Part shown: piece after piece, positions 2,345 through 16,110 of the stretch
Layout of the letters: each line of letters begins with the position of its first letter
Numbering within the stretch: position 1 is the stretch's first letter
DNA from: a virus
Length of the DNA stretch: 21,198 nucleotides
Virus record (IMG/VR): IMGVR_UViG_3300035703_002886
Span: 1 to 21,198 of that record
Reading direction: 5' to 3' (one strand)
Made by a program: the position numbers and the translations under genes
Notes under the pieces: generated by a model
Told to the model about the DNA's origin: nothing
Databases searched by the model: none
Seen by the model: only the letters and a program-made list of their open reading frames with translations

Positions 2345-2962
2345 ATGAATTTGATGTCTATTTATTCTATTCCACTTTGGCAAAGTGAATATCCGGAGTT
2401 TGATGAATATAAAGAAATATTCCTCAATGCCGTAAGAACTTATAAGGAAGAAAACACTTCAGTACAAAAGTCAAATATCACAGGATATCGTTCTCCAGAA
2501 ACGCTTCAACATGTTTCAGAATTGCGTCCACTTTTTGAATACATCTGTCAGATGGGATTTAAGGCTGTTGCAGACTTAGAATTTATCGATTGTGATATTG
2601 CACTTACATCTGCCTGGTTAAATATTAATGATACTCGTCAATGCATGAATTCTGAGCATATTCATGGAGATGTATTCTCTGGGGTATTTTATCTTCAAGC
2701 ACCTGAAGAAAGTGGAAAATTAGTGGTACAAAATCCAGCAATTAACAAGATGTGGAATGGTTGCTCTTTGACTTCGCAAAAGAACCAATTTACTGGAGAA
2801 AGTATTCGTATTGAACCCACAGAAGGAGATATTATTCTCTTTCCTTCTTATCTTCCTCATTCAGTAGAAACCAATAATCACGACGAAGAAAGAATTTCAA
2901 TTTCTTTTAATCTCATTGCACTTCCAAAAGGTAGTATTGAATATTCTCAAAGTGGAACATAA
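2345..2962 (+). CDS. 2OG-Fe(II) oxygenase (TIGR02466-like)
   Basis: 205 residues. The double-stranded beta-helix signature is visible: EHIHGD with H107 and D109 as the likely HxD iron ligands, SGVFYL (112-117), ESGKLVVQNP, then GDIILFPSYLPHSVETN with H172 as the distal ligand and ERISISFN with R183 as the likely 2-oxoglutarate anchor. This order and spacing match the putative 2OG-Fe(II) oxygenase family common in cyanophages and cyanobacteria. It is expected to hydroxylate a substrate using O2 and 2-oxoglutarate; the substrate is unknown. No clear Shine-Dalgarno precedes 2345; an in-frame ATG at 2354 (MSIYSIPLW) is an equally good start and closer to relatives' N-termini. First gene of the accessory cassette; its 3' end overlaps the next gene. 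Confidence 0.82.
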   Translation: MNLMSIYSIPLWQSEYPEFDEYKEIFLNAVRTYKEENTSVQKSNITGYRSPETLQHVSELRPLFEYICQMGFKAVADLEFIDCDIALTSAWLNINDTRQCMNSEHIHGDVFSGVFYLQAPEESGKLVVQNPAINKMWNGCSLTSQKNQFTGESIRIEPTEGDIILFPSYLPHSVETNNHDEERISISFNLIALPKGSIEYSQSGT

Positions 2963-3617
2963 TATTTTTATAGGAACTCCGTGTTTTGAATATAAAGTCA
3001 ATGCAAATTATGTAAAGTCACTTATAGAGTTTTCTAAAAACAATATTAATTTTGAAACATTTTTTCTTCACGATAGTTTGATTACTCGCGCAAGAAATGA
3101 GTTAATTACTCGATTTTATGAGAACTCACAAAACTTTACACATTTATTATGGTTAGATGCAGATGTATCCATCACTGCAAGCGGCCTTCAAAATCTACTA
3201 GATGAAAATGTAAATGTGATTGCAGCTCCAGTTCCAATTAAAGATTTAAATCCTGGAGCACATCAATCGGTGAGGAAATCTTATGAAGAAGTAAGGCCTT
3301 ATGTCTATAAGGCAGAAGCAGCAGCAACTGGTTGTCTTCTGATGAGTAAAAAATCAGTTATTGATTTGATAGAAAGTTCAAAATATTATTTTATTAATGA
3401 TCATAGCGAAAGAAAAATATATAATGTATTTGAAAGTGGCATTAAGGATCGACAATTGATGAGTGAGGACTGGGATATTTGTTATAAGTTAAGAGAATTA
3501 GGATATGAAATTTATGTGAATAGTTCCTTTCCAGTGTCTCACTTTGGAATTTATAATTACTCCAGAGGTCCAATGTTAAATAAAGGATTTTCAAAAAAAC
3601 CATTTAGTTATTCATAA
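2952..3617 (+). CDS. Glycosyltransferase, GT-A fold (Anp1/GT2-like)
   Basis: About 222 residues from a GTG at 2952, chosen because a family-like N-terminus (NIFIGTPCFEYKVNANYV) starts there; it overlaps the upstream oxygenase by 11 bases. Residues 46-51 RARNEL and 67-72 WLDADV give the GT-A pattern with the DxD metal/nucleotide-sugar site (D69, D71). SEDWDICYKL and a following HFGIYNY near the C-terminus are the usual acceptor-side motifs. It should transfer a sugar from a nucleotide sugar; donor and acceptor are unknown. It is followed one base later by another glycosyltransferase, suggesting stepwise glycan assembly. An alternative upstream TTG (2916) would lie inside the oxygenase gene and is not favoured. 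Confidence 0.75.
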   Translation: MEHNIFIGTPCFEYKVNANYVKSLIEFSKNNINFETFFLHDSLITRARNELITRFYENSQNFTHLLWLDADVSITASGLQNLLDENVNVIAAPVPIKDLNPGAHQSVRKSYEEVRPYVYKAEAAATGCLLMSKKSVIDLIESSKYYFINDHSERKIYNVFESGIKDRQLMSEDWDICYKLRELGYEIYVNSSFPVSHFGIYNYSRGPMLNKGFSKKPFSYS

Positions 3618-3618
3618 A

Positions 3619-4437
3619 ATGAAAATTCATCAAATACTCATAAATGATACTAATAAGTTACCTGATAAATTTCCAAAGTTTCATAATGTTTGCGTAAATC
3701 AAATTAAAAAGTTATATCAAAATGAAGAATATCATTTATATTCTGGAGAAGAACTAGAAGAAATTATAAAATCTAATTTTCATGTCGATGTATTTGCTGC
3801 ATATAATAAATTAAAACCTTATGCTTATAAAGCAGATCTTGCAAGATATTGTTTATTATATCTTTATGGTGGTCTTTATATCGACTTAAATGTGTATTTT
3901 ATTAATACTATTCCCGACTTAGATGAGTTAGATTTTTTTGCATTTAGAGATAGGTCTAAAGCATCTATGCAATGTTGGGCTGTGCAAAATTGTATTATGT
4001 TTTCACATAAAAGTTCAAATGTAACTAAAGGTGCAATTGATTTAATCGTAAAAAATTGCAAAGAAGAATATTATGGAATACAACCTATTGATGTGAGTGG
4101 TCCAACTATTCTGGGAATGTCTATAGTAAATTCTTTGCCGAATTTAAAAATTTCAACTCGCGGACAACAAGATTTTATTTTAAAAAATAATCTTAATATT
4201 GAAATAATAGAAAAATTAAATAAAAATGGTTATAATAATATGGATATATTGGAAGGATATATAATTGATGATAATGATAAACTGGTTGCCATAAGAAAAC
4301 CTTCATCTGATGGTGATATTGAAAAATTGAGATTTAAAGGAACAAATAATTTTGTAAAAATGTGGAGAGATAGACAAATTTACAATAAGAAATTTAAATT
4401 TACAGATAAAAAATTAATATCATTAAATTATCAATGA
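3619..4437 (+). CDS. Glycosyltransferase with DXD-type sugar-binding domain (GT32/OCH1-like)
   Basis: 272 residues from ATG 3619, one base after the previous stop. The N-terminus MKIHQILINDTNKLP and the KPYAYKADLARYCLLYLYGG core (residues 67-85) are typical of the Gly_transf_sug family (GT32, OCH1/capsule type). The motif normally reading YxDxD is YIDLN here (D89-L-N91), so the second acidic residue is replaced by Asn. QNCIMFSHKSS and SGPTILG further on also fit the family. The C-terminal 60 residues are Lys/Asn-rich. It probably adds a hexose to a glycan; whether the DLN variant lowers activity or alters metal use is open. Its last four bases overlap the next gene (ATGA). Confidence 0.75.
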   Translation: MKIHQILINDTNKLPDKFPKFHNVCVNQIKKLYQNEEYHLYSGEELEEIIKSNFHVDVFAAYNKLKPYAYKADLARYCLLYLYGGLYIDLNVYFINTIPDLDELDFFAFRDRSKASMQCWAVQNCIMFSHKSSNVTKGAIDLIVKNCKEEYYGIQPIDVSGPTILGMSIVNSLPNLKISTRGQQDFILKNNLNIEIIEKLNKNGYNNMDILEGYIIDDNDKLVAIRKPSSDGDIEKLRFKGTNNFVKMWRDRQIYNKKFKFTDKKLISLNYQ

Positions 4438-5267
4438 AATCTTATTATTTTATTTCTGGACTTCCAAGATCTGGTTCCACATTACTTTCTTCTATTCTTC
4501 GACAAAATCCAGAGTTTTATGCAGATATTGCATCACCAGTAGAAGCACTTACCGAGTCTGCAATTGATATAGTCACAAGCACAGGAAGTAATCTAACAGT
4601 TACAGAAGAACAAAGAAAAAATTTAATGTATGGAATTTTTGAAGGTTACTATACGCATATAGAGAATTCAGTAGTTTTTGATAGTTCGAGGAGTTGGACA
4701 AAAAAAACTAATTTTCTCAAGGCACTTTTTCCTTATACTAAAATTTTATGTCCCGTAAGAGACATCGTTTCAATTTTAAATTCATTTGAAGTCATTTCAT
4801 CAAAAAATCCATTTTATACCAATACACTCACGAAGCATATTGACAATGTATTTGTGAGATGTAATAATATGATGAATAAGAATGACGGAATTGTTGCGGG
4901 CCCTTGGATTTTTCTTCAAGAAGGTTATGCACTCAATCCAGAGATGATTCACTTTATTGAATATGAAAATTTGTGTAAAGATCCAGAAAAGACAATGAAA
5001 GGTATCTATGAGTTTCTAGAAAAACCTTATTACTCTCATGATTTTCAAAACCTTGAATATTCTAACGAAAACTTCGATAAAGCATATAATCTTAAAAATT
5101 TACATACCGTTAAAAGAAAAGTAGAATACAAACCACCAAGATGTATTCTTCCTCCAGAAATCGTTCAGAAGTATGTGGAAATGAATATGGAGTTCTGGAA
5201 AAAAAGTTATAAAACTAACTCAAATATTATTGAAAAGTTGGATAAGAAGTTTATCGAGTATGAATAA
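4434..5267 (+). CDS. Sulfotransferase (Sulfotransfer_3 type)
   Basis: 277 residues from ATG 4434, overlapping the preceding stop as ATGA, so translational coupling is likely. Residues 7-19 (ISGLPRSGSTLLS) form the P-loop-like 5'-phosphosulfate-binding motif of PAPS-dependent sulfotransferases. CPVRDIVSILNSFE (106-119) supplies the 3'-phosphate-binding Arg109 and Ser113. The region between carries the SRSW-KKTNFLKALFP spacing common to this family. It would move sulfate from host-made PAPS to a hydroxyl or amine, plausibly on the glycan made by the two preceding glycosyltransferases. It belongs to a different sulfotransferase family from the two at 9327 and 12770. Confidence 0.85.
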   Translation: MKSYYFISGLPRSGSTLLSSILRQNPEFYADIASPVEALTESAIDIVTSTGSNLTVTEEQRKNLMYGIFEGYYTHIENSVVFDSSRSWTKKTNFLKALFPYTKILCPVRDIVSILNSFEVISSKNPFYTNTLTKHIDNVFVRCNNMMNKNDGIVAGPWIFLQEGYALNPEMIHFIEYENLCKDPEKTMKGIYEFLEKPYYSHDFQNLEYSNENFDKAYNLKNLHTVKRKVEYKPPRCILPPEIVQKYVEMNMEFWKKSYKTNSNIIEKLDKKFIEYE

Positions 5268-5381: not shown

Positions 5382-6944
5382 ATGAGAATTCTAACAATAC
5401 CAATATTAATGCATGACAGTTCAATTACTGAATTTTATGATGGTGAAATAATTTCTTACAAAATGGAAGAAAGATTTTCTAGAAAAAAACATGACTTTTG
5501 TTATGAAGAAATATTAAATTCAATATCCAAAAATAAAAAATATATATTCGATTATGTAATCATAATTAAGCATACGATAGAAGAATATATTTATCCAATT
5601 AAAAGTGTATTAAAATTATTAGAAAAAATACCACATAAACAAATTTTAATATGCGATGAAGAACATCATCTTTATCATGCATATTGTGGATTTTATAATT
5701 CAAATTTTGATGATGCACTTTGTTTTTCCATAGATGGTGTTGGTGCATTATTGCGTGATAATAATTTGGAATTAGAAAGTGTATACTATTTAAATAGAAA
5801 AAACGAAGTAAAAGAAATTTTTAAAAGGACTAGAAAATTTCAAATGTGTTCTGAAGATAATAATATTCTTGATCATTATAAAAGAATAAATTATGAGGAT
5901 CAAACTGTTGGTGAAAAGTTTGCCTTATATTCATACAAAATAAATTATAACATTCTTGACGGACCAGGAAAAGTAATGGGTCTTGCTCAGTATAAAAATA
6001 ATAAACATAAACTACAATATCCATACGACACAAATGAATGGAAAGAAAGAGTAAATGGTGCTCATGATATACAACAAGAAACACAAAATCATGTGTTAAA
6101 TCTTATAAAAAAATATACAGAAAAAACTAATATTAAAAATGTTGTGATCTCTGGTGGTTATGGGTTGAATTGTGTCGCAAATTATTATTATCTCAAAAAC
6201 CTTAAGAACATCAACTTTTACATAGATCCAGTTTGTTTCGATGCAGGTATTAGTATTGGCGTCGCATATTATCATTATTTACAATCTTCTCAAAACTTAT
6301 TTCCAATACAACCACTTCAAAATGTTTACATAGGACATCAAGAAACTTCTTATGACTTAAAAGGTTTACAAACACAAAAAGTATCTCATGAGGACATAGT
6401 AAACCTTCTCCTTCAAAAAAATATTATTGCACTGTTCCAAGGAAGAAGCGAAGCGGGTCAAAGAGCACTTGGCAATCGTTCTTTACTTTTTGATCCAAGA
6501 ATTCCTGATGGGAAGGATTTGGTTAATAAAATTAAAAAAAGAGAAAGCTTTCGTCCTTTTGCTGGAACTATTCTTCAAGAAGAAGCACATAAATGGTTTA
6601 ATATGCTTTCATTGAAAGAAAGTCCTTATATGCAATATGCAATGGATGCTTATAAAAATACAATAGAGCAAGTTCCTGCGATTATTCACGCAGATAACAC
6701 TTGCAGAATTCAAACGGTCACACTAGAGCAAAATCAACATTTTTATAATTTGATTTCCTGTTTCTTTGAGAAAACTGGAGTTCCTATGTTATTAAATACC
6801 AGTTTTAATCTTGGTGGAGAACCATTGGTTGAGACCCTCAAACATGCGATTCACACTCTTAAGAATAGCATGATAGAATACTTATATCTTCCAGAGATAG
6901 AAACATTAGTTACGATTAAAAATAAAAAACTAATGTATAAATAA
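5382..6944 (+). CDS. Full-length carbamoyltransferase (NodU/CmcH/TobZ family)
   Basis: About 520 residues. ATG 5382 is chosen because MRILTIPILMHDSS-x7-DGEIISYKMEERFSRKKHD matches the family's N-terminus; the upstream TTG (5334) adds 16 unrelated residues. N-terminal Kae1-like domain: HHLYH (H95 and H99, HxxxH metal site), FSIDGVG (D118), GPGKVMGLAQY, VISGGYGLNC and PVCFDAGISIG (D287). C-terminal YrdC-like domain from about residue 340: FQGRSEAGQRALGNRS, RESFRPFAGTIL, HADNTCRIQT and LLNTSFNLGGEP. In TobZ the C-terminal domain makes carbamoyl-adenylate from carbamoyl phosphate and ATP, and the N-terminal domain transfers the carbamoyl to a hydroxyl. All landmark motifs are intact, so activity is expected. 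It sits with sulfo- and glycosyltransferases, suggesting O-carbamoylation of a sugar. Confidence 0.92.
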   Translation: MRILTIPILMHDSSITEFYDGEIISYKMEERFSRKKHDFCYEEILNSISKNKKYIFDYVIIIKHTIEEYIYPIKSVLKLLEKIPHKQILICDEEHHLYHAYCGFYNSNFDDALCFSIDGVGALLRDNNLELESVYYLNRKNEVKEIFKRTRKFQMCSEDNNILDHYKRINYEDQTVGEKFALYSYKINYNILDGPGKVMGLAQYKNNKHKLQYPYDTNEWKERVNGAHDIQQETQNHVLNLIKKYTEKTNIKNVVISGGYGLNCVANYYYLKNLKNINFYIDPVCFDAGISIGVAYYHYLQSSQNLFPIQPLQNVYIGHQETSYDLKGLQTQKVSHEDIVNLLLQKNIIALFQGRSEAGQRALGNRSLLFDPRIPDGKDLVNKIKKRESFRPFAGTILQEEAHKWFNMLSLKESPYMQYAMDAYKNTIEQVPAIIHADNTCRIQTVTLEQNQHFYNLISCFFEKTGVPMLLNTSFNLGGEPLVETLKHAIHTLKNSMIEYLYLPEIETLVTIKNKKLMYK

Positions 6945-7001: not shown

Positions 7002-7610
7002 ATGAAAAATACAAAACTCGTAAAAATAGAACCTAATTTTATATCAGAAGAAGAATCAAAGGTATTATCAAATTGGACTTCATCTAATTATGATCAACCA
7101 TACTTCATGAATCCGAAAATGAATAATGATAAAGTTCAAACAAGATTTACGACTCGTCATGCTCATCATAGAATAAGTGAGTATCAAGATTTTAAAGTTA
7201 AATATCCAAAAGAAGTCTATAATATTCAAAAAAGAATTTTTAAATATTTAAATTTAACTCTAAACGATATCATACCTTTTCCAGCATTTACTGATGGAAT
7301 TGTAACAACTTTTGGATTTTCTCCTGGAAGTTGTATAAGTCATAAAGATCCAATTTATTATCAAAATACCTATACTTTACATTGCAATTTTTGCACTCAA
7401 ACTCCAGAAAGTGGAGGAATAACTATACTTGAAGGTAAAGAATATCCATTTAAATATAGAGATATGATAATGTATGTTGCATCACATGTTGAGCATGAAG
7501 TTAGTGAATGTGTTGGAAATACTCCAAGAGTTTTATGGATATTTGGATTTTGTGTTTCTTTAGAACAAATGAATAATATTTTTAATATTAAATCTTTTAC
7601 ATATAGTTAA
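7002..7610 (+). CDS. 2OG-Fe(II) oxygenase (prolyl-4-hydroxylase-like)
   Basis: 202 residues from ATG 7002. HKDPIYYQNTYTLHCNFC gives the HxD iron ligands (H114, D116) in the loop before a core strand. TPESGGITILEGKEYPF and YRDMIMYVASHVEHEVSEC supply the distal histidine (H165, possibly H162), and GNTPRVLWIFGF the 2-oxoglutarate Arg (R176). Substrate unknown. It separates the full-length carbamoyltransferase from the split one and is two bases from the next ORF. Notably, a diverged copy of its last 31 codons is found at 9933-10028, in frame behind the sulfotransferase stop, implying that a second oxygenase of this family once lay there. Confidence 0.78.
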   Translation: MKNTKLVKIEPNFISEEESKVLSNWTSSNYDQPYFMNPKMNNDKVQTRFTTRHAHHRISEYQDFKVKYPKEVYNIQKRIFKYLNLTLNDIIPFPAFTDGIVTTFGFSPGSCISHKDPIYYQNTYTLHCNFCTQTPESGGITILEGKEYPFKYRDMIMYVASHVEHEVSECVGNTPRVLWIFGFCVSLEQMNNIFNIKSFTYS

Positions 7611-7612: not shown

Positions 7613-8182
7613 ATGAATAAATTAAAACTTATAGAAAATGTTGAATCTTATGATATTGCAAATTTATTATTAGATAATAAATTTATTTGCATATTTAATG
7701 GAAGATCCGAAGCTTCTCCAAGAGCATTGGGCAATAGGTCTTTAATATTTAATCCTACAATTTCATCAAATAAAGATGTAGTTAACGAAATAAAAGGAAG
7801 AGAAAAGTTTAGACCATTAGCTTGCTCTATTCTTTTAGATCACACTAAAAATTGGTTTTATATGAATGATATAGAAGAATCTCCTTTTATGACTTACTCG
7901 TTTAATGTTAAATCTGAAAAAGAACATCTCATTTCATCTGTCATACATGTTGATGGTACTTGCAGATTGCAGACAGTATCAAAAAAAAACAATTTTAACT
8001 ATTATTCAATAATAGAGAATTTTTACAATTTATGTAATGTTCCACTAATTGGAAATACTTCATTTAATTTAGCAGGTGATCCAATAGTAGAAACCATTGA
8101 AGATGCGATAAAAACAATACATCTTTCAAAATTAAATTATTTGTATTTTCCTGAGTGTAAATTTCTTATAAAAAAAACATAA
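7613..8182 (+). CDS. Carbamoyltransferase C-terminal (YrdC-like, carbamoyl-adenylate-forming) domain as a separate gene
   Basis: 189 residues beginning only about 12 residues before the domain. It contains all the C-domain landmarks: FNGRSEASPRALGNRS (28-43), REKFRPLACSIL (63-74), IHVDGTCRLQT (111-121) and IGNTSFNLAGDP (146-157). The matching part of the full-length enzyme at 5382-6944 starts at about its residue 340. No N-terminal Kae1-like domain is present upstream; instead that domain is the next gene, two bases downstream. The two products should together make one enzyme. The protein is clearly diverged from the C domain of the upstream full-length enzyme, so it is not a recent duplicate fragment, and the intact frame argues against decay. 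Confidence 0.88.
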   Translation: MNKLKLIENVESYDIANLLLDNKFICIFNGRSEASPRALGNRSLIFNPTISSNKDVVNEIKGREKFRPLACSILLDHTKNWFYMNDIEESPFMTYSFNVKSEKEHLISSVIHVDGTCRLQTVSKKNNFNYYSIIENFYNLCNVPLIGNTSFNLAGDPIVETIEDAIKTIHLSKLNYLYFPECKFLIKKT

Positions 8183-8184: not shown

Positions 8185-9324
8185 ATGATTATAGTATCTA
8201 TTGCCATACAAAATCACAATGCATCAATATGCATTCTAGAAGATGAAAAAATTTTACTTTTATTGCAAGAAGAAAGAGTAAGTAGAATAAAAAATGATTC
8301 TTCACTTCCACTTAAAATGCTTAATTGCATACAAAATTACGCAAAAGTAATCGATTACTTATGTCTTACAAATATAAGAGAAGAAGAAAAAATATATATA
8401 TGTGATTTTTTGAATATTAATAAGATAAAAGTACTCGATATTATTTTTGAAGGATCTGATAATCATCATTTATATCATGCATCTTCTGCTTTTTATGGTT
8501 CTGGATTTGAAGAATCTGCATGTCTTGTTATAGATGGTTGGGGAGGTGCATTTAATGACTCTAAAAATAATTTATCTTTTCTAGAGACAACATCAATATA
8601 TTGTGCAAATTATCCAAATAATTTTACCACAATATATAAAAATTTGTGGTATTTGCCACATATTAACACTCCAGATCAATATATTATGTCTGACTTTGAG
8701 TCTCAATTTGATTATGATGTTAATTTAAATCATCATTTAGACCTAGGAGTCATGTATCGCACAGTAACTGATCATATTGGATATTCTGTGATAGGAGGTC
8801 AAGGAAAAACTATGGGATTATCTGCATATGGCAAATCAAATAAAAATATTCCAAATATTTTATGTGAAAATAGTATTTTATCTAATATGAATTTATTTCT
8901 TTCAAATAGATCTTTAAACATAAATTTATTTCCATATTTAAAAAATATGGATTTTCAAAAAAAAGCAGATTTGGCATATTCAATTCAACAAGCATTAGAA
9001 AAAATATTTTTAGAAAGAATTGATTATACAATAAAAAAAACAAATTGCAAAAATATTGTTTTTTCTGGTGGATGTGCATTGAATGTAGTTGGTAATTCGG
9101 AAATTAAAAAAAACTTTTCCAAAATAAACTTTTATGTAGATCCAATATCTAATGATGCATGTCAGTCTTTTGGTGCTGCAAAATTTTATTATCACCAGAT
9201 TACAAATAGCAATAAAATTTCCAAATTAGAAAATTTATATCTTGGTGATGATTATAATATTGCAAAAAACAAAAATAAAATTAAATGTGCAGTGGATAAA
9301 TACAATCTAATAAACTATAATTGA
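8185..9324 (+). CDS. Carbamoyltransferase N-terminal (Kae1-like) domain as a separate gene
   Basis: 379 residues from ATG 8185. Motifs: IQNHNAS (9-14), LQEERVSR (28-34), DNHHLYHASSAFYGSGF (from residue 92; H94 and H98 metal ligands), LVIDGWGG (D117), GQGKTMGLSAYG, FSGGCALNVVGN and DPISNDACQSFGAA (D324). It ends with the LENLYLGDDYN linker plus about 22 residues, exactly where full-length relatives run into the C-terminal domain. The catalytic carbamoyl-transfer domain is therefore complete, but it depends on a C-terminal partner, supplied by the preceding gene (7613-8182) or possibly by the intact enzyme at 5382. It is one of the most A/T-rich genes here, with many poly-A runs. Confidence 0.88.
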   Translation: MIIVSIAIQNHNASICILEDEKILLLLQEERVSRIKNDSSLPLKMLNCIQNYAKVIDYLCLTNIREEEKIYICDFLNINKIKVLDIIFEGSDNHHLYHASSAFYGSGFEESACLVIDGWGGAFNDSKNNLSFLETTSIYCANYPNNFTTIYKNLWYLPHINTPDQYIMSDFESQFDYDVNLNHHLDLGVMYRTVTDHIGYSVIGGQGKTMGLSAYGKSNKNIPNILCENSILSNMNLFLSNRSLNINLFPYLKNMDFQKKADLAYSIQQALEKIFLERIDYTIKKTNCKNIVFSGGCALNVVGNSEIKKNFSKINFYVDPISNDACQSFGAAKFYYHQITNSNKISKLENLYLGDDYNIAKNKNKIKCAVDKYNLINYN

Positions 9325-9326
9325 TA

Positions 9327-9932
9327 ATGACAATTAATCATAAAAAGAAACTTATATTCATTCATATACCAAAAAATGCAGGAACTTCTATTATTAAGAC
9401 AATGGGAATTGAAAATCTTTATATGGATAAAACCATAGAGGAATATAAAGAACATTATAAAGATTATTGGAAATCTTATACAAAATTTACTGTAGTTCGT
9501 GATCCAGTGGATAGATTTATTTCTGCATATAAATTTGCAAGAATGAAAGAAAGTGGTTGGTTTTCTGCAACTGGAGAAGAAGGTTTAGAAAAACATCATC
9601 ATTATGAAATGTGCAATTCGATGGATATTAATGAATATGTTTCTTACCTTTATAAAAATTTAAAAGAATTTAACAGATGGATAATGCCTCAAACATTTAT
9701 TATTGAAAATAAAAATGGAGAAATAGAAATAGATTATTTTGTAAGATATGAGAATCTTTTAAATGACTTACAAAAAATTGGTATTGATAAAATTGAAAAA
9801 TTAAATTCATCAAAAGTTAATGACGATCAAGTAATTCAACTTACAAAAAAATCTAAACATATGTTATATGAAATTTATGATATTGACTATCAAAACTTTT
9901 TTTATGTAAAAAATATATTCTATTATAATTAA
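9327..9932 (+). CDS. Sulfotransferase family 2 (PF03567-like), paralogue A
   Basis: 201 residues from ATG 9327, which is preferred over the TTG at 9321 because the paralogue at 12770 begins with the same MTINH. Residues 11-21 (FIHIPKNAGTS) form the 5'-phosphosulfate-binding loop and FTVVRDPVDRFISAYKF (54-70) the 3'-phosphate site with R58 and S67. The family sulfates carbohydrates using PAPS. It starts two bases after the split carbamoyltransferase stop. Its stop codon is followed in the same frame by the tail of a lost oxygenase gene. It shares N-terminus, core and the QLTKKSKHMLYEIYDIDYQ C-terminal motif with the gene at 12770, so the two are duplicates or related imports. Confidence 0.85.
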   Translation: MTINHKKKLIFIHIPKNAGTSIIKTMGIENLYMDKTIEEYKEHYKDYWKSYTKFTVVRDPVDRFISAYKFARMKESGWFSATGEEGLEKHHHYEMCNSMDINEYVSYLYKNLKEFNRWIMPQTFIIENKNGEIEIDYFVRYENLLNDLQKIGIDKIEKLNSSKVNDDQVIQLTKKSKHMLYEIYDIDYQNFFYVKNIFYYN

Positions 9933-10112: not shown

Positions 10113-10379
10113 ATGACTGAAAAACCTTTAAGAAGATTTGAACTTTGTGTAGAAAAAATTGAAACACTTGACGATGTAAAAAAGATTTTGGAGGCAATGC
10201 GTATAAGAATTGATACTGACAATCCTTATTATCAAGAAGTGGAGCATTACTTTTCAACTGAAGTGGTTCCAAAAGGTTATATTAAAGTATTAGAAAAAGT
10301 TGGATATGAACAAATCAATAAAATGACTTTAGGAGAAATTGAAAAAATAGGTCTTGAACTTTTAAATGAAATAGAATAG
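10113..10379 (+). CDS. Small acidic/helical protein of unknown function
   Basis: 88 residues from ATG 10113, with a clear Shine-Dalgarno (GAGG at 10103-10106), one of the better ribosome sites in the window. The protein begins MTEKPLRRFELCVEKIETLDDVKKILEAM and looks mostly alpha-helical with many charged residues; no signal peptide, membrane segment or recognised motif is visible. It lies between the oxygenase remnant and an intact oxygenase gene, behind its own putative promoter. I do not recognise the family. The good ribosome site and balanced composition argue that it is real. Confidence 0.65.
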   Translation: MTEKPLRRFELCVEKIETLDDVKKILEAMRIRIDTDNPYYQEVEHYFSTEVVPKGYIKVLEKVGYEQINKMTLGEIEKIGLELLNEIE

Positions 10380-10413: not shown

Positions 10414-10977
10414 ATGATAAGAACTTATAATAATGTTTTAGATGAACATTTGATTAAAAATATTATGGATTACTTTAGATCTATACTGAGAGAAGGTGTG
10501 TGGGGATCAAATATTGGATGGGATCAAAATTTGGGTTTAATATCTTCTAATACACTTACACATATCATATCAAATAAGTTTTTAGAAAAAAAAATTAAAA
10601 GTAGTATAGAAAAAGCACTTAATGTTAATTTTGAAAAGGAAAAATTAACATTTGTTCCTTCAATTTATGTCTGGTGTGGTGGTTCTTACATAACATGGCA
10701 CCAAGATAATTTTTACAATTATAATGGTACGATATATTTAAATGAAGAATGGGATAGTAATAATGGCGGAATATTCTTATATAAAGACAATCAAACAAAA
10801 GAAATCATAGGTATTGAACCATGCTATAATTCTATGGTTGTAAACTCTGCAATAGAAACAGATCCTCACAATTCACATTGCGTAACTTGTATTGTTCCAG
10901 GAACAATAAAAAAAAGAGTTACAATTCAGTGGAGAGCTAATAATACAGATAAAAAAAATAATATTAAATATCAATGA
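10414..10977 (+). CDS. 2OG-Fe(II) oxygenase (prolyl-4-hydroxylase-like)
   Basis: 187 residues from ATG 10414, with a weak TAGG ribosome site eight bases upstream. YITWHQDNFYNYNGTIYLN gives the HxD ligands (H96, D98) and the following core strand. WDSNNGGIFLY matches the family's glycine-rich turn, DPHNSHCVTCI supplies the distal His (H155 or H152), and KKRVTIQWR the 2-oxoglutarate Arg (R168). This arrangement is the phage P4H-like form. Substrate unknown; it overlaps the following glycosyltransferase as ATGA, suggesting coupled synthesis of a hydroxylase and a glycosyltransferase. Confidence 0.8.
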   Translation: MIRTYNNVLDEHLIKNIMDYFRSILREGVWGSNIGWDQNLGLISSNTLTHIISNKFLEKKIKSSIEKALNVNFEKEKLTFVPSIYVWCGGSYITWHQDNFYNYNGTIYLNEEWDSNNGGIFLYKDNQTKEIIGIEPCYNSMVVNSAIETDPHNSHCVTCIVPGTIKKRVTIQWRANNTDKKNNIKYQ

Positions 10978-11771
10978 AAAAACCAATTGAAGTCTTTTTG
11001 AGACACTGTTATTACTCTAAATTACAAGAACTTCCAGACAGAACAAGACCTTCTTGGTTTAATAAAATTAAAGTATTCGAAAATTTTAAAAATACTTTAA
11101 ATCCAGATCTCGTAAACTATACAATAATCTATGATGAGTTTTGTGGTGGTATAGATAAGACTTTTTTATCACGAGAAAAAGATATAGAGATTATTAACTG
11201 TGGAAGTGAGACCGATAGCTTTCTTCAAACACTTGATATTATTCAATCACGAAATTTTACTGATGATACGATTGTTTATTTTTTAGAAGATGATTATTTA
11301 CATCGTCCAGGATGGTGTGAGATAATGCTAGAAGGTTTTTCAATTAATCCTGCATATGTCACTTTATATGACTTTGATTTTTTTATTGCAAAAGGATACT
11401 TATGTGAAATTTTTACAACATCAAGTTCTCATTGGAGAGCCGTTCCTGCAACAACCAATACTTTTGCTTGTAGATATGAAACGCTACTAGAAGATTTAGA
11501 AATACATAAAAAGTACTCAGATAAAAATATATGGATTCCTGAATTAATGAGTGAAAATCTTGTAGAAGATTCTGGTTATTATTTTTCAAAAGATTATGAT
11601 AAGTTTTGGGAGCTTCAAAAACAAAATAAGTATTTGATTTCACCAATACCCGGTTGGAGCACTCATTGTGATGCAAATCATATAAGTCCCGTGATAGATT
11701 GGGAGAAAATTATGAATGACACTTATTTTCAAAAAGAAAAAAAACAAACTTCGAGTTTTAATTATAAATGA
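10974..11771 (+). CDS. Glycosyltransferase-like protein (EDD-type, GT-A-like)
   Basis: 265 residues from ATG 10974, overlapping the oxygenase stop by four bases. The landmark is VYFLEDDYLHRPGW (101-114), an acidic EDD motif in the place of the DxD of GT-A enzymes, preceded by an SFLQTLDII helix. The C-terminal PGWSTHCDANHISPVIDWE motif is shared by phage and bacterial homologues annotated as glycosyltransferases. Donor and acceptor are unknown. The assignment rests on the acidic motif and context; overall similarity to characterised enzymes cannot be judged by eye. Its stop overlaps the next glycosyltransferase gene as ATGA. Confidence 0.65.
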   Translation: MKKPIEVFLRHCYYSKLQELPDRTRPSWFNKIKVFENFKNTLNPDLVNYTIIYDEFCGGIDKTFLSREKDIEIINCGSETDSFLQTLDIIQSRNFTDDTIVYFLEDDYLHRPGWCEIMLEGFSINPAYVTLYDFDFFIAKGYLCEIFTTSSSHWRAVPATTNTFACRYETLLEDLEIHKKYSDKNIWIPELMSENLVEDSGYYFSKDYDKFWELQKQNKYLISPIPGWSTHCDANHISPVIDWEKIMNDTYFQKEKKQTSSFNYK

Positions 11772-12736
11772 CTACAATTATTTCATTAGATGGTGGAATT
11801 GGAAGAGTTATCGCTGCAATTCCTGCACTACTCAAATATCATAAGAATCATTCAGACGAAGAGTGGTATATCATGATTCTTGGATGGGACTTCGTGACTT
11901 GGGGATTTCCAGAATTGCAAGAAAGAACTTTTAATCCTGATGCTCGTGGATCTTTTGATTTATATTGGAAAGCAGATCGAGTAATTGCACCAGAACCTTA
12001 TCGTCTTCCTGCATACTATCGCAATGAGATTTCATTGAGAGAAGCATTTGATGTTTGTATTAATGGTTCTACAGACCACAGTGACTTACCACCAATGCAA
12101 TTGAATATTTCGGCAGCAGAAAAAAGAAAAGCATATGAAATCATAGAGCAATCAAAATCAATTCATAAGAAATCAAAAACTATTGTTATTCAACCTTATG
12201 GTTCCACAGCAACTCCGCATTCTTCTGGAATATTTGATGATAGTTTGAGATCAATTCCAAAACTGATGTTAGATTATTTCATCAATAATCTTTCAAAAAA
12301 TTATAATATAATTTTTATGGGAGCAAAGGAATTTCATGATATAAGAACTTACAAACCAGATCCTGATCCAAACTTAAGAGAATGGGCTGCGATTATTGGT
12401 TCCTCTGATTATTTTATTGGTTGTGATTCCTGCGGTCAGCATATGTGCAGAGCACTCAATAAACCTGCGTCTGTAGTTATTGCAGGCACTCATCGTGTGA
12501 ATGTAACCTATGATGGTTTTCATATTATTGAAAGAGATGTTGAGTTTTATCCTGACTCAATGAGAATATCAGGTTTTCAATCACATATGTCCTCTAGATT
12601 AAATGAACCAAGGATTGAATTTACTCAAGAAGAGATCGAAAGTTCATATAAAGAAATTATTGAAAAAATAGAAGGTAATAATAGGAGAGTAGAATTATCA
12701 AAACCAGTAGTCGTTAAAGGAGTGTCTTATGTTTAA
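11768..12736 (+). CDS. Glycosyltransferase family 9 / heptosyltransferase-like (GT-B fold)
   Basis: 322 residues from ATG 11768, overlapping the preceding stop. The N-terminal ISLDGGIGRVIAAIPALLKYHK resembles the GxG-D-ALP start of ADP-heptose:LPS heptosyltransferases. TIVIQPYGSTATP (138-150) is the mid-protein phosphate/base-contacting loop. IIGSSDYFIGCDSCGQHMCRALNKPASVVI (from residue 209) matches the GT9 'signature' where D and SG contact the nucleotide sugar. It likely transfers a heptose or related sugar. The gene contains, near its end, a strong Shine-Dalgarno (12716-12722) for a short overlapping ORF at 12729. Confidence 0.75.
   Translation: MTTIISLDGGIGRVIAAIPALLKYHKNHSDEEWYIMILGWDFVTWGFPELQERTFNPDARGSFDLYWKADRVIAPEPYRLPAYYRNEISLREAFDVCINGSTDHSDLPPMQLNISAAEKRKAYEIIEQSKSIHKKSKTIVIQPYGSTATPHSSGIFDDSLRSIPKLMLDYFINNLSKNYNIIFMGAKEFHDIRTYKPDPDPNLREWAAIIGSSDYFIGCDSCGQHMCRALNKPASVVIAGTHRVNVTYDGFHIIERDVEFYPDSMRISGFQSHMSSRLNEPRIEFTQEEIESSYKEIIEKIEGNNRRVELSKPVVVKGVSYV
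12716..12722 (+). promoter_or_regulatory. Strong Shine-Dalgarno (AAAGGAG) serving the truncated start at 12729
   Basis: AAAGGAG lies six bases ahead of the ATG at 12729, the best-placed ribosome site in the window. Most cassette genes have no recognisable site, so its presence here before only 13 codons suggests it once served a full gene. It may now feed the sulfotransferase at 12770 by coupling. Confidence 0.7.
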
Positions 12737-12770
12737 ATGGAAATCATTAAATGAGTTATATAATCAATAA
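12729..12770 (+). pseudogene. 13-codon truncated gene start (or leader peptide), MFKWKSLNELYNQ
   Basis: ATG 12729 has an excellent ribosome site and overlaps the end of the GT9 gene, a normal phage gene junction. Translation gives MFKWKSLNELYNQ and then stops at TAA, whose last base is the first base of the sulfotransferase ATG (TAATG). The peptide looks like the beginning of a larger protein cut off where the sulfotransferase begins. The stop-start overlap would let ribosomes re-initiate, so it may now work as a leader. The identity of the lost gene is not determinable here; the start faintly resembles some SAM-dependent methyltransferases, which I could not check. Confidence 0.55.
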
Positions 12771-13402
12771 TGACAATAAATCACGAAAAAAAATTAATAT
12801 TCATACATATACCAAAAACTGCAGGAACATCAGTACATGCATCTTTAGGTGTAAAAGAGACTTTACTTAACAATAAATTTGTAGGACATAAAAGTATATG
12901 CGATTATAAGAAACAATATAAAAATTATTGGAACATTTATTTGAAATTTACTGTAGTTAGAGATCCAATAGATAGATTTATTTCTGCATATAAGTTTATG
13001 AAAATGGAAGAAAATTTTTGGCATTCGCCAAACAATCCAAATAAGTATCCAATTCATGAACATTATAAAATATGCAATTCTTTAGATATTAATCAATACA
13101 TTTCATACTTATCTAAAACGACAAAAAATCATTCTATGCTTACTGTACCTCAAATATTTTTTATTATGGATAAATATGAAAAAATCGAAATTGATTATAT
13201 TGCAAAATATGAAAATTTAAATAATGACTTAAAAAAAATTGGAATTGACTTGGTTGATAGATTAAATATATCTACTATAAAAGATAAAAGTTCTATACAA
13301 TTAACAAAAAAATCAAAAAAAATGTTATATGACATTTATGATATGGATTATCAGTACTTTTCTTATATCAAGGATGTTAAAAATATATTTTCTTACGATT
13401 AA
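12770..13402 (+). CDS. Sulfotransferase family 2 (PF03567-like), paralogue B
   Basis: 210 residues from ATG 12770. FIHIPKTAGTS (11-21) is the 5'-phosphosulfate loop and FTVVRDPIDRFISAYKF (60-76, R64 and S73 region) the 3'-phosphate site. The C-terminus carries QLTKKSKKMLYDIYDMDYQ, nearly the same as in the gene at 9327, and both begin MTINH, so the two are paralogues that differ mainly in the central acceptor-facing part (FWHSPNNPNKYP here versus WFSATGEEGLEKHH there). The difference suggests distinct acceptor specificity. It begins in a TAATG overlap with a 13-codon truncated ORF. The 56 bases after it hold no recognised gene. Confidence 0.85.
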   Translation: MTINHEKKLIFIHIPKTAGTSVHASLGVKETLLNNKFVGHKSICDYKKQYKNYWNIYLKFTVVRDPIDRFISAYKFMKMEENFWHSPNNPNKYPIHEHYKICNSLDINQYISYLSKTTKNHSMLTVPQIFFIMDKYEKIEIDYIAKYENLNNDLKKIGIDLVDRLNISTIKDKSSIQLTKKSKKMLYDIYDMDYQYFSYIKDVKNIFSYD

Positions 13403-13458: not shown

Positions 13459-13821
13459 ATGCGAATGATAGTTACAATTCCAATTTCTGTAGGAGAACTC
13501 TTAGATAAGATTTCAATACTTTCTATTAAATCTCAACACACAAAAAATGAATATGTGATAAAAGAGCTTCAAGATCTTATTGAAATTGCAAAAGAACATC
13601 AGGTTTATGATGCTCACTATGTTTCACAATTACTTACAATTAATCGTAAACTTTGGAAAATTGAAGATGACTTAAGAGTTTTTGAAAAATCAAAAATATT
13701 TAATCAAGAATTTATAGAACTTGCACGAAGTGTATATATTACTAATGATAAAAGGGCACTCATCAAAAAAGAAATTAATGAGAAGTATAAATCTTATTAT
13801 AATGAGGTGAAAATTTACTAA
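13459..13821 (+). CDS. DUF6165 family protein
   Basis: 120 residues from ATG 13459 (AAAGG at 13447-13451 is a reasonable ribosome site; an in-frame ATG at 13465 is an alternative). The signature ISVGELLDKISILSIK at the N-terminus, then LLTINRKLWKIEDDLRVFEK and FIELARSVYITNDKRALIKKEIN, matches DUF6165, a helical family of unknown function found near lipopolysaccharide and glycan genes in bacteria and cyanobacteria. No membrane segment or catalytic motif is visible. Its position at the end of the glycosyltransferase/sulfotransferase run fits a glycan-related accessory role. The stop codon overlaps a CTAAATA promoter box for the next gene. Confidence 0.75.
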   Translation: MRMIVTIPISVGELLDKISILSIKSQHTKNEYVIKELQDLIEIAKEHQVYDAHYVSQLLTINRKLWKIEDDLRVFEKSKIFNQEFIELARSVYITNDKRALIKKEINEKYKSYYNEVKIY

Positions 13822-13824
13822 ATA
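13818..13824 (+). promoter_or_regulatory. Putative late promoter box (CTAAATA)
   Basis: CTAAATA overlaps the stop codon of the DUF6165 gene and ends 25 bases before the ATG at 13850. The same box occurs at almost the same distance (27 bases) before the remnant ORF at 16148, whose N-terminus is homologous, supporting a conserved promoter-plus-start module. Confidence 0.6.
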
Positions 13825-13849
13825 TTTGCAAAGGGTCTACAAAATTTAC

Positions 13850-14413
13850 ATGTCCTACACAGATATTTTTGCAACCGAGTCAAGGGGATTATATAGTCCT
13901 CCAAATGGAAATCATCCACAGTTGCTTCCTGATTTGTGGAGAGAAAGTTTTCCTGATGGCCCTATAAGAACTGATTTACCAGATCTCTCTAATGAGGAAC
14001 TGAATGCTCTTGGTTGGAAAGGACCAATTACAATGCCTCCTCTTGAAGGAACGAGTTATTTTACCCATTATTATGAATGGAATAAAGAAACACGAGAGTA
14101 TGATGCATTTGAATTTGATGAGTTTGAGAAGAGACTTAAAGTTCAATATCAAACTTTTTGGGATTTGCTACTAGATACTAATGCTTATACGAAAATTAAA
14201 TTAATTGCTTCACAATCACTAGCAGCAAATACTCTTGCTACTGAGTTCATTGCTCTCATTAATGATGCAAAAAGAGGTGAAGCAAATATAAAAAAAATTC
14301 AACAAGTTCTTTCAGAAATTATACTAAATATACCTTTTACTGAAGAAGAGTTCGTAGAAATACAAGAAATATTCACCAAAAGTGGAATGTTTGCAATTTA
14401 CACATTAACATAA
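13850..14413 (+). CDS. Virion-associated-looking protein of unknown function
   Basis: 187 residues from ATG 13850; this is preferred over the upstream TTG at 13826 because MSYTDIFATESRGLYSPPNGN aligns with the start of the ORF at 16148. The first half is rich in Pro, Trp and acidic residues (LPDLWRESFPDGP, LPDLSNEELNALGWKGP, HYYEWNKETREY); the second half is helical with KLIASQSLAANTLATEF and a TEEEFVEIQEIF segment. A late promoter box precedes it and three oxygenases follow at once. I recognise it only as similar in style to uncharacterised cyanophage structural-region proteins; a fibre-associated or baseplate role is inference. It could be a substrate of the oxygenases that follow. Confidence 0.6.
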   Translation: MSYTDIFATESRGLYSPPNGNHPQLLPDLWRESFPDGPIRTDLPDLSNEELNALGWKGPITMPPLEGTSYFTHYYEWNKETREYDAFEFDEFEKRLKVQYQTFWDLLLDTNAYTKIKLIASQSLAANTLATEFIALINDAKRGEANIKKIQQVLSEIILNIPFTEEEFVEIQEIFTKSGMFAIYTLT

Positions 14414-14417
14414 TATC

Positions 14418-14942
14418 ATGACTTATGAAATTATAGATAATTTTCTTGAGAAAGAAGATTTTGATTTTATTATATCTACATTTTTTCCAAGTGACTTAAA
14501 TAATCCAAATAATTTTGCTTGGAATTATCAAAAAGGAATCGTAAGAGATCCAGAATTCGGACCAACAGGATATGAAGAAAATGACTGGATTTATGTACAT
14601 TCATTATACTCCAGTGATAATGGACTTAAGTTTGATAGACATTATTCTATAGTCAAACCAATTTTAAATAAACTCAAAATAAAAAAACTTTTTGATATTC
14701 GTGCAAATCTTTTAGTTCCTACAAAAGATCATATTTATCATGAGTTTCATATTGATCGAAAAGTGCTTCATAAAGTTGCCTTATTTTATGTAACATCTTG
14801 TAATGGTTTTACTGTGCTTAAGGATACTGCTGAAGTACAATGTTTGGAAAACAATATGTTACTCTTTGATGGAAATATAGAGCATCATTCAGTAACTTCA
14901 ACTGACTATCCTCGATGCGTGATTAACATTAATTATCTATAA
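14418..14942 (+). CDS. 2OG-Fe(II) oxygenase, short form A
   Basis: 174 residues from ATG 14418, four bases after the preceding stop. HEFHIDRKVLHKVALFYV provides HxD (H111, D113) and the next core strand; NGFTVLKD is the turn; ENNMLLFDGNIEHHSVTS contains the distal His (H156 or H157); YPRCVININY holds the 2-oxoglutarate Arg (R166). The catalytic half is clearly paralogous to the gene at 15625 (same NG-T-V, LLLFD, HHS and RVN-type spacing). Substrate unknown. Being the first of three consecutive oxygenases directly behind a virion-like gene, it may modify that product. Confidence 0.78.
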   Translation: MTYEIIDNFLEKEDFDFIISTFFPSDLNNPNNFAWNYQKGIVRDPEFGPTGYEENDWIYVHSLYSSDNGLKFDRHYSIVKPILNKLKIKKLFDIRANLLVPTKDHIYHEFHIDRKVLHKVALFYVTSCNGFTVLKDTAEVQCLENNMLLFDGNIEHHSVTSTDYPRCVININYL

Positions 14943-14957
14943 ATTGGAGAATATTTT

Positions 14958-15632
14958 ATGACTTTTAATCCACAAAAACTTAAATATAACTTTAAGGAAT
15001 TTATTGGAATTTATGAAAATGCATTTACATTAAATGAGTGTGAAGATACTGTAAAGTTATTTGAAACTTATCACAAAGCAGGTTTTACCTATGATAGATT
15101 TGAAGGGACACTTAATCATAAAGATGATATTTCAGCAACCATTGGACCAAATGTAGAGCTTGATTGGAATATTGAATTTATCAATTCATTTCATGATAGA
15201 TTTTACAATTACATTTATCCATTATATAATATTCAATATCCTGTATTGCAAACTTTACAAAAACATAGATCAAAAATTATTAAAATACAAAAAACATATC
15301 CAACGAAAGGTTATCATGTTTGGCATTGTGAGCATGATGCAACTTTATCGGGTAAAGAAAGAATTTTATCTTGGATTCTATATTTAAATAATGTAGAAGA
15401 AGGTGGAGAGACAGAATTTTTATACCAATCATTAAGATTTAAACCAAAAGCAGGAACTTTTATTCTTTTTCCCGCACACTTTACACATACGCATAGAGGA
15501 AATCCACCACTATCTGGAGTTAAATATATCGCAACCGGATGGATCGAATTTTTAAATACGACAGAACCTCAAGGAGCATCTATAATTCCAAATTTAAATC
15601 AAATAAAAAATAGCAACTTAGATTATGCATAA
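14958..15632 (+). CDS. 2OG-Fe(II) oxygenase, P4H-like with HxE motif
   Basis: 224 residues from ATG 14958, with a GGAGA ribosome site at 14945-14949. YHVWHCEHDA gives H123-x-E125 rather than the usual HxD, followed by RILSWILYLNNVEEGGETEF, the typical P4H strand and GGET turn. FKPKAGTFILFPAHFTHTHRGNPP supplies the distal His (H177 by alignment) and GVKYIATGWIEF the probable 2-oxoglutarate Lys (K189). This matches the P4H-type oxygenases widely seen in T4-like cyanophages; the WHxE form has been noticed in such phage proteins, so it is likely a genuine variant and not a defect. It overlaps the next oxygenase gene by eight bases. Confidence 0.85.
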   Translation: MTFNPQKLKYNFKEFIGIYENAFTLNECEDTVKLFETYHKAGFTYDRFEGTLNHKDDISATIGPNVELDWNIEFINSFHDRFYNYIYPLYNIQYPVLQTLQKHRSKIIKIQKTYPTKGYHVWHCEHDATLSGKERILSWILYLNNVEEGGETEFLYQSLRFKPKAGTFILFPAHFTHTHRGNPPLSGVKYIATGWIEFLNTTEPQGASIIPNLNQIKNSNLDYA

Positions 15633-16110
15633 AATTATAGATAATGTTCTTCCAAAAGAAGAATTTGAAAATATCAAAAACTTTATGTTAAATCCACATT
15701 TTCCGTGGAATTTAACAACTGTTGTGTCTAATAAAAAAGAAAATTTACCGATATCAGCATCTTATTATTTTACTCATGAGTTTTGGTCTGGTTTTCATAC
15801 AGAGCCAGAGGCACAAGTATTTGCACCAATTCTTAATCAAATTGAGTGTCGTGCAGTGATGAGAATTAAAGGAAACTTATATCCTTCGACAGAAACTATA
15901 GTTCATCATATTGATCATGTGGATTATGAGTTTCCTCATCGTGGTGCAATTTTTTATTTAAATACCAATAATGGTCTCACAGTAGTTGATGGAAAAGAAG
16001 TAGAATCTGTAGAAAATCGTTTATTACTTTTTGATCCAACAGTTCCTCATCATAGTACAACTTGCACCAATGATAAGTGTAGAGTGAATGTAAATTTTAA
16101 CTTCTTTTGA
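15625..16110 (+). CDS. 2OG-Fe(II) oxygenase, short form B
   Basis: 161 residues from ATG 15625, overlapping the previous gene by eight bases. IVHHIDHVDYEFPHRGAIFYL supplies HxD (H95, D97) and the core strand; NNGLTVVDGKEVESVENRLLLFDPTVPHHSTT gives the distal His (H142 or H143); DKCRVNVNFNFF holds the 2-oxoglutarate Arg (R153). It is a paralogue of the gene at 14418. Third of three adjacent oxygenases; its downstream 37 bases carry a short AGGAAgTTCCT inverted repeat and the promoter for the next ORF. Confidence 0.8.
   Translation: MHKIIDNVLPKEEFENIKNFMLNPHFPWNLTTVVSNKKENLPISASYYFTHEFWSGFHTEPEAQVFAPILNQIECRAVMRIKGNLYPSTETIVHHIDHVDYEFPHRGAIFYLNTNNGLTVVDGKEVESVENRLLLFDPTVPHHSTTCTNDKCRVNVNFNFF

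Follow-up and report, generated by a model that had tools for sequence, protein, structure and literature searches.

The stretch of DNA analysed here is the entire IMG/VR record IMGVR_UViG_3300035703_002886, a virus genome fragment of 21,198 bases, hereafter called the window. Between positions 2345 and 16110 it holds an island of genes for 2-oxoglutarate (2OG)-Fe(II) oxygenases, glycosyltransferases, sulfotransferases and carbamoyltransferases (Table 1), for which an earlier annotation, hereafter the original prediction, had proposed a role in building a modified glycan on the virion or the host envelope. The genes lie at the positions claimed there, on the plus strand, as do all 25 assigned genes of the window. 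Their packing had been described as mostly overlapping or within a few bases; 10 of the 18 junctions do overlap or are at most 4 bases apart, but the other eight leave gaps of 15–180 bases. The enzymes had also been placed between adhesin genes. They are flanked by tail genes, but the gene opening at 13826/13850 was ruled out as an adhesin: its product belongs to the tail-fibre assembly-chaperone type (phrog_28714), since the hidden Markov model (HMM) of its family also contains L011:13178-13915, a Phage_tail_APC match in one of the related loci described below (numbered with an L).

Table 1. Genes of the island and its flanks, with their coordinates in the window and the evidence for each assignment.
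Gene and product	Coordinates	Strand	Evidence and remarks
Tail fibre/baseplate-type protein	3..1037	+	best PHROG tail family phrog_18186, E 8.5e-40; 5' end outside window
lcl, tail-tip-like protein	1060..2187	+	Big_5 Ig-like N part, 67 bits; Lcl_C-like C part
oxy1, 2OG-Fe(II) oxygenase	2345..2962	+	PF13759, 82 bits; TIGR02466, 101 bits; H105-x-H107, H172, R183
gtA, probable GT-A glycosyltransferase	2952..3617	+	Anp1/DUF5672 weak, E ~8e-4; phrog_1574, E 2e-17; LDAD motif
GT32-like glycosyltransferase	3619..4437	+	PF04488 and PF05704 over cut-off
st1, Sulfotransfer_3 sulfotransferase	4434..5267	+	PF13469, 68 bits; 5' PAPS loop GLPRSGSTLL
ct1, full-length NodU/TobZ-type carbamoyltransferase	5382..6944 (open reading frame opens TTG 5334)	+	PF02543 and PF16861
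oxy2, probable 2OG-Fe(II) oxygenase, weakest of six	7002..7610	+	H114-x-D116, H162/H165, R176 invariant in 3/3; phrog_13746, E 0.004
ctC, C-terminal half of split carbamoyltransferase	7613..8182	+	PF16861, 179 bits; PDB matches
ctN, N-terminal half of split carbamoyltransferase	8185..9324	+	PF02543, 100 bits
st2, Sulfotransfer_2 sulfotransferase	9321..9932	+	PF03567, 53 bits; HIPKNAGTS
sm88, 88 aa, function-unassigned island protein	10113..10379	+	in 12/27 distinct loci
oxy3, 2OG-Fe(II) oxygenase	10414..10977	+	PF13640, 30 bits
gtB, GT-A-fold glycosyltransferase	10974..11771	+	model pLDDT 77, fold matches; EDD invariant in 28/28
GT9-like (heptosyltransferase-fold) glycosyltransferase	11768..12736	+	phrog_8954, E 7e-60; model pLDDT 84
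st3, Sulfotransfer_2 sulfotransferase, st2 paralogue	12770..13402	+	PF03567, 51 bits
DUF6165 protein, island member	13459..13821	+	PF19662, 49 bits; in 16/27 distinct loci
Tail-fibre assembly-chaperone-like protein	13850..14413 (open reading frame opens 13826)	+	phrog_28714; purpose-built HMM seeded with a Phage_tail_APC member
oxy4, 2OG-Fe(II) oxygenase	14418..14942	+	phrog_274, E 2.7e-37
oxy5, 2OG-Fe(II) oxygenase	14958..15632	+	PF13640, 49 bits; phrog_61, E 2.8e-45
oxy6, 2OG-Fe(II) oxygenase	15625..16110	+	phrog_274, E 4.8e-41
L-shaped tail fibre assembly protein	16326..16661	+	phrog_3304, E 1e-17
Large tail-fibre-type protein	16696..20316	+	48% identity over 88% to SynMITS9220M01 gp093

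The enzyme classes were borne out by Pfam and PHROG matches of graded strength. For the six oxygenases the evidence is clear in three cases, good in two and weak in one; oxy1, oxy3 and oxy5 pass the Pfam cut-off, TIGR02466 was the only NCBIfam model over its cut-off, and oxy2 gave no Pfam match. The triad of HxD/E...H with a distal Arg or Lys was found in oxy2, oxy3, oxy4 and oxy6, which carry HxD, and in oxy5, which carries HxE; in the oxy4 family, HxD and the distal histidine were invariant (11/11). The phrog_274 family of oxy4 and oxy6 is labelled “DNA endonuclease V”. This label is wrong for both, because of their HxD...H pattern and because the Pfam-recognised oxygenases oxy1 (2345) and oxy5 (14958) match phrog_274 as well; the denV annotations of cyanophages, P-SSM2 and S-SSM7 among them, may have gone wrong in the same way. 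A weak NCBIfam match of oxy3 was to a cyclophane-peptide oxygenase, and a radical SAM/SPASM gene (L137:8480-9448) lies inside a related island, adjoining an oxygenase and a sulfotransferase.

All three predicted sulfotransferases score over the Pfam cut-off. The loop that binds 3'-phosphoadenosine 5'-phosphosulfate (PAPS), GLPRSG-TL, was invariant in the st1 alignment (16/16), HIPK-AGTS was present in st2 and st3, and the latter two genes share 71% DNA identity across their matched part. Four glycosyltransferase-like genes were also confirmed, two of them, gtB and the GT9-like gene, by predicted fold, as neither has a significant Pfam match. The model of gtB has a GT-A fold with the acidic motif EDD, and the top 30 Foldseek matches of the GT9-like protein were all GT9, WaaC, WaaF or TibC. 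The two carbamoyltransferase systems are one full-length and one split enzyme of the NodU/TobZ type: ct1 has both Carbam_trans domains and matches 7xb6, GdmN and TobZ in the PDB, whereas ctC and ctN have one domain each and stand in swapped order, ctC before ctN. The HHxxH, DG and RALGNR stretches were invariant in all seven aligned full-length carbamoyltransferases. Translation of ct1 probably starts at the ATG at 5382, because relatives start there. The island enzymes contain no strongly hydrophobic segment (top 19-residue Kyte-Doolittle mean 1.68) and all look soluble.

To place the island among relatives, loci were gathered around carbamoyltransferases (best 80 of at least 596), st1 (best 80 of 159) and st3 (6 loci). 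Counts from the best-80 sets are no census, and island loci were picked by a sulfotransferase or carbamoyltransferase match, so that both classes are enriched by choice. Open reading frames (ORFs) were labelled with profile HMMs built from the gathered loci (threshold E 1e-4), and the st1-anchored set was split by the presence of an oxygenase into 21 island loci and 59 others. Three pairs of loci lie on the same contig (L107/L177, L103/L179 and L105/L182). Collapsing near-copies reduced 29 loci to 27 distinct islands including the window, with L177, L179, L181 and L182 left out. Oxygenases and glycosyltransferases were present in all 27, sulfotransferases in 24 and carbamoyltransferases in 12; nine islands had all four classes, so the survey of co-occurrence for which the original prediction had called came out in its favour. 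A tip-type LCL gene was found in 25 of the 27 and a fibre-chaperone-like gene in 21.

Gene content varies widely between loci, and a recurrent order is nonetheless seen: tip (LCL), oxy1, st1, variable enzymes, gtB, sm88, gtB, GT9, DUF6165, fibre chaperone, oxy4, oxy6. The tip-oxygenase-sulfotransferase head is the most constant piece. In 16 of the 21 st1-anchored island loci (L005, L018 and L097–L115) oxy1 is followed by st1; four have a GT4 gene between the two and L109 is without oxy1. The gap is only 3–6 bases in L005, L018, L103 and L177. In the window, gtA and the GT32-like gene intervene. The overlap of oxy1 and gtA at 2952, which had been put forward as an oxygenase-glycosyltransferase pair, is therefore present but a local feature, whereas the second such overlap, at 10974, recurs in L103. 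Closest in content is L107/L177, which has ct1, the split ctC-ctN, st2 and oxy2 with identities of 62–84%; there, st2 and oxy2 lie in the interval from ct1 to ctC. By reading of its gene order, the L137 island ends at neck genes. Two islands rich in oxygenases, L004 (11) and L019 (9), have two carbamoyltransferases and no labelled sulfotransferase in the stretch covered.

As a control, 80 loci anchored on uvsW (761 kb) were labelled. The window has 2.83 oxygenases per 10 kb versus 0.26 in the controls, and 1.42 sulfotransferases versus 0.16; glycosyltransferases (1.89 per 10 kb in the window) and carbamoyltransferases (1.42) were at 0 in the controls. Given these densities, the 27 syntenic loci and the nine with all four classes, the island is not a chance assembly. 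Sulfotransferases alone are no marker of it, since 12 of the 80 controls carry real-looking Sulfotransfer_2-like genes near uvsW and away from fibres (L184, L193, L198, L203 and eight more). Reading frames in the island are intact, and the median pN/pS (nonsynonymous to synonymous polymorphism) was 0.19–0.39 for 16 of the 18 genes tested, a set that excluded gtA; for the GT32-like gene and for st3, no relative passed the threshold. These ratios indicate that the island genes are under purifying selection.

Of the 27 records searched, the largest three (59, 86 and 125 kb, behind L004, L107 and L110) carry the photosystem gene psbA; the 24 psbA-less records, of 4–51 kb, are fragments or nearly so. 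The closest match of the window's large fibre-type protein, gp093 of SynMITS9220M01, sits between the terminase small and large subunit genes of a T4-like cyanophage. Together, psbA on the largest relatives and the gp093-like fibre gene mark the island as a feature of T4-like cyanophages.

The tail-tip gene next to oxy1 was inspected in the relatives. Taken alone, the Lcl_C match of the window tip is at E 0.046, and the protein shares 58% identity with L103:2283-2795 across 142 aa. In four loci (L103:2283-4523, L110:7533-9379, L111 and L112) a diversity-generating retroelement was found with an Lcl-type tip directly upstream of the island; in L103 the tip and oxy1 are separated by a bAvd gene and one for a reverse transcriptase. 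Differences between template and variable repeat fell at template A in 18 of 19 cases in L103, 26 of 26 in L110 and 28 of 29 in L111 and L112, which are near-copies. These A-specific repeats identify the gene next to oxy1 as a hypervariable recognition protein in these relatives, and reverse transcriptases of this type were detected by motif search in seven loci. In the window no retroelement, template repeat or reverse transcriptase was found beside the tip, whose 3' end aligns poorly with the relatives' templates.

Collagen-like sequence was also seen in island loci. Runs of at least eight Gly-X-Y triplets occurred in ORFs of 7 of the 21 island loci, against none of the 80 uvsW controls, 2 of the 80 carbamoyltransferase loci and 4 of the 59 loci without oxygenase; of these seven, L098 and L099 are near-copies of each other, and the ORF of L137 is a short one at the end of its locus. 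ORFs with long runs of this kind (23–94 triplets) were noted in L098:3-1622, L099, L100, L102, L110:4300-7008 and L111, some with Gly-Pro-Thr repeats. No such run was found in ORFs of the window. Among the first Foldseek matches of gtB were Mimivirus R699, LH3 (lysyl hydroxylase) and COLGALT1, proteins of collagen hydroxylysine glycosylation, in which an oxygenase and a GT-A enzyme act in series. Identity to gtB is only 8–11%. The LH3 match covers residues 294-543, which we take to be its accessory domain, and GnT-I scored a higher Z (13.7 versus 12.3), so this analogy serves as a lead only; a putative collagen-like acceptor in island loci is likewise a lead.

The 59 st1-anchored loci without labelled oxygenase came from a different kind of phage. 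One of them, L165, has portal and capsid families and a capsid protein that shares 89% identity with one of an uncultured Manatee Spring virus and, more distantly, matches Pseudomonas and Rhizobium phages; the group is called podovirus-like on these grounds. Their sulfotransferases are 50–54% identical to st1. All 59 loci have a 140-aa gene, 55 have a gene like adenosine 5'-phosphosulfate (APS) kinase, and 38 have an LCL-type gene within 4 kb of the sulfotransferase (HMM built here); curated cut-offs were passed by two kinase examples (APS_kinase) and two tail examples (Lcl_C). Labelled glycosyltransferases numbered six in 746 kb. In L165:8823-11604, and likewise in L121, L138 and L172, the tail gene, the 140-aa gene, the sulfotransferase and the kinase stand in a row; the tail gene is Lcl_C in L165 and L172, and the L165 kinase has a nucleotidyltransferase-like C part. 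As the st1 family stands beside Lcl_C-type genes here too, the sulfotransferase tracks the tail gene across unrelated phages. Judging from its gene families, the row is possibly a small system for PAPS supply. This is a lead only, because kinase homologues occur in Stenotrophomonas, Xanthomonas and Clavibacter phages in which no st1 relative was found.

Other scans concerned the window as a whole. No tRNA gene, Rfam hit or match to near-identical phage DNA was found in it. Sigma-70 promoter predictions were the same as in shuffles, and the late-promoter motifs TATAAATA and CTAAATA occurred 2 and 4 times versus 4.7 and 7.9 expected. A tandem repeat of 114 bp (2.5 copies, positions 323-604) lies within the upstream fibre gene.

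Parts of the island are already known from the published cyanophages P-SSM2, S-SSM7, Sf-FS3 and S-SRM01. The first three have, like the window, a GT9-like gene, a NodU-type carbamoyltransferase and 2OG oxygenases by tail-fibre genes; the clusters of S-SSM7 and Sf-FS3, which combine oxygenases, GT9 and two carbamoyltransferase genes, sit just before neck genes, and the published relatives end at gp13–gp15. Unlike the window, all three carry ADP-heptose genes, and the stretches of them that were covered gave no sulfotransferase. The window for its part has three genes for sulfotransferases and none for sugar nucleotides (Pfam scans of this fragment found no ADP-heptose pathway gene). A GT9 gene directly upstream, at most 300 bases from the carbamoyltransferase start, was seen in 69 of the 80 carbamoyltransferase loci; the window breaks this pairing, its GT9 gene not being adjacent to ct1, and thus differs from the P-SSM2/S-SSM7 type of cluster in both respects. 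The tail-fibre region of S-SRM01 resembles the window in another way, with an oxy1-family oxygenase, an st1-family sulfotransferase directly followed by gtB (48% identity) and other glycosyltransferases, and DUF6165, but no carbamoyltransferase was found there with the profile HMMs. The original prediction was aware of no reported phage cassette that combines the four steps. All four chemistries were indeed found together only in the window and in uncultured relatives, and none of the papers listed from an open-licence library describes such a cassette, but S-SSM7, Sf-FS3 and S-SRM01 hold parts of it, which narrows that statement. What is new here is the constant tip-oxygenase-sulfotransferase head, the retroelement-diversified tip in relatives, and the st1 family beside Lcl_C genes in podovirus-like phages.

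Such genes have been read in several ways, in the passages concerned of the papers cited. Whether cyanophage lipopolysaccharide (LPS) genes are functional or “stuffer DNA” was left open, and oxygenases were tied to nitrogen metabolism and DNA repair (PMC3037559); 24 oxygenases were counted in S-SCSM1 (PMC9602691); carbamoyltransferase was interpreted as pyrimidine synthesis (PMC9146016, PMC10436341) and phage sulfotransferase function was termed unclear (PMC10580990). The carbamoyltransferase of Synechococcus phage MS29, an aspartate carbamoyltransferase in the relevant part of PMC10436341, matches the NodU-type ct1. On mycobacteriophages, glycans are carried by capsid and tail tube subunits (passage of PMC12619734 citing Freeman et al. 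2023), whereas the acceptor proposed here is a candidate; hydroxylation, sulfation and carbamoylation do not appear in that passage.

What the island does is most likely, in our tentative view, to decorate the phage's own adsorption apparatus. This target is favoured by the island's neighbours, which are fibre, tip and neck genes, and by the presence of the sulfotransferase at the same type of tail gene in unrelated phages. To that extent the interpretation of the original prediction holds up, with real families, conserved co-occurrence, constant tail-fibre linkage, soluble enzymes and purifying selection on its side. Judged by their families, the oxygenases hydroxylate, the glycosyltransferases transfer sugars, the sulfotransferases draw on PAPS and the carbamoyltransferases consume carbamoyl phosphate and ATP. 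While virions are being assembled, these soluble enzymes would work in the cytoplasm of the host, with freshly synthesised adsorption proteins as substrates: the Lcl-type tip, its neighbouring fibres or the two together. The oxygenases would hydroxylate side chains (or sugars), gtA, GT32, gtB and GT9 would transfer sugars from host nucleotide sugars, and the PAPS-dependent sulfotransferases and carbamoyl-phosphate-dependent carbamoyltransferases would cap hydroxyls. The outcome would be a chemically variable host-recognition organelle, altered by swaps of enzyme genes as the retroelement alters the tip in some relatives. We infer the acceptor, the order of the steps, their late timing and the benefit of the decoration.

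Several points weigh against decoration of the adsorption apparatus. Modification of the virion is a prediction from the genes, 3 of the 27 islands have no sulfotransferase in the stretch covered and 15 have no carbamoyltransferase, and the sulfotransferases near uvsW and the details of the LH3 match described above count on the same side. Active-site motifs also depart from expectation: oxy1 has HxH, not HxD, its relative in L180 is without the second and distal histidines, and the DxD motif of the GT32-like protein reads D-L-N. Nor is gtB tied to fibres everywhere, since its homologue in Microcystis phage Mel-JY01 lies among glycosyltransferase genes near DNA polymerase and IMP dehydrogenase, not by fibres. 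The GT9 fold matches include the LPS enzymes WaaC and WaaF, and on the favourable side TibC, which heptosylates an adhesin protein.

As GT9 enzymes thus serve both LPS and an adhesin, a host-envelope target stays in play. The island could remodel the LPS or surface glycans of the infected host and so block superinfecting or released phages, while the adjoining tail tip would bind the unmodified receptor; serotype-conversion genes adjoin tailspike genes in some temperate phages. The heptosyltransferase fold of GT9 and the ADP-heptose genes of P-SSM2, S-SSM7 and Sf-FS3 speak for such remodelling, and cyanophage papers take such clusters as host-surface genes (in part of PMC9602691). We regard it as unlikely, if the most serious of the alternatives, given the placement among tail and neck genes and a Pfam scan of the window proteins that found no flippase, polymerase or lipid-linked initiating enzyme. 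T4-like cyanophages are lytic, and would gain little from a long-term surface change. Less probable still is a mixed target, in which sulfotransferase and oxygenase act on the tail protein (at tyrosines or hydroxylated side chains, for instance) and a separate glycan is the work of GT9, GT32 and the carbamoyltransferases. The greater constancy of the tip-oxygenase-sulfotransferase core, the scarcity of glycosyltransferases in podovirus-like loci and the st1 profile, which in the PDB matches tyrosylprotein sulfotransferases best (E 8e-12), fit this division of labour, but in the alignment with those enzymes their Glu-Glu-x-Arg stretch, which we take to be catalytic, is not kept in st1, and Sulfotransfer_3 is a broad family.

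Modification of a hydroxymethylated DNA base by oxygenase, glycosyltransferase and carbamoyltransferase is very unlikely. A phage 5-hydroxymethylcytosine carbamoyltransferase of the same families (PF02543/PF16861) is proven, in a thymidylate synthase context, whereas the window has glycosyltransferases around its genes; unmodified contigs with glycosyltransferase-flanked carbamoyltransferases are reported as well (sections of PMC8670742). Pfam gave no match to thymidylate synthase, dCMP hydroxymethylase or Tet_JBP, nor to any other base hydroxymethylase or TET oxygenase, among the island proteins. Of 103 carbamoyltransferase genes, 91 have a glycosyltransferase within 2.5 kb and three a thymidylate synthase within 4 kb. 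In a tree of 40 of these 103 rows, ct1 and five others form a clade (support 100/100) whose six members all have a glycosyltransferase neighbour. The split enzyme (ctC) is placed with that of L107 and also with an S-SCSM1 gene adjoining thymidylate synthase, the latter grouping on long branches and so possibly misleading. Beside thymidylate synthase, S-SCSM1 has tandem split carbamoyltransferases in the order C-N-C-N (L013:18183-21765), possibly DNA-directed, and S-RIM44 has C-N. The swapped split is therefore an established cyanophage form, and it presumably arose by tandem duplication and loss of the ends. That the island is drifting stuffer DNA without function, an idea considered for cyanophage LPS genes (in a passage of PMC3037559) and in keeping with the wide differences in gene content, is scarcely credible in view of the low pN/pS, intact frames and conserved order.

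Decoration of the adsorption apparatus can be taken one step further: the tip may be diversified twice, in sequence by the retroelement of the relatives and in chemistry by exchangeable hydroxylating, glycosylating, sulfating and carbamoylating enzymes. We hold this extended proposal to be doubtful. If it is true, we know of no earlier example of a sulfated adsorption organelle in a phage. Its core would be tip, oxygenase and sulfotransferase, and the APS-kinase-like gene that travels with the sulfotransferase in unrelated phages could make the donor for that enzyme. The 2OG oxygenases, carbamoyltransferases and sulfotransferases of cyanophages have long been filed as isolated “auxiliary metabolic genes”, with questionable interpretations. 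An island that is linked to tail genes and conserved at its core allows one testable interpretation for many of them, and S-SRM01 (Synechococcus sp. KCZYC6) provides a cultured relative. Should decoration of the adsorption apparatus prove true, the chemistry of the virion would add to host recognition, or to shielding, a second layer that changes by exchange of genes.

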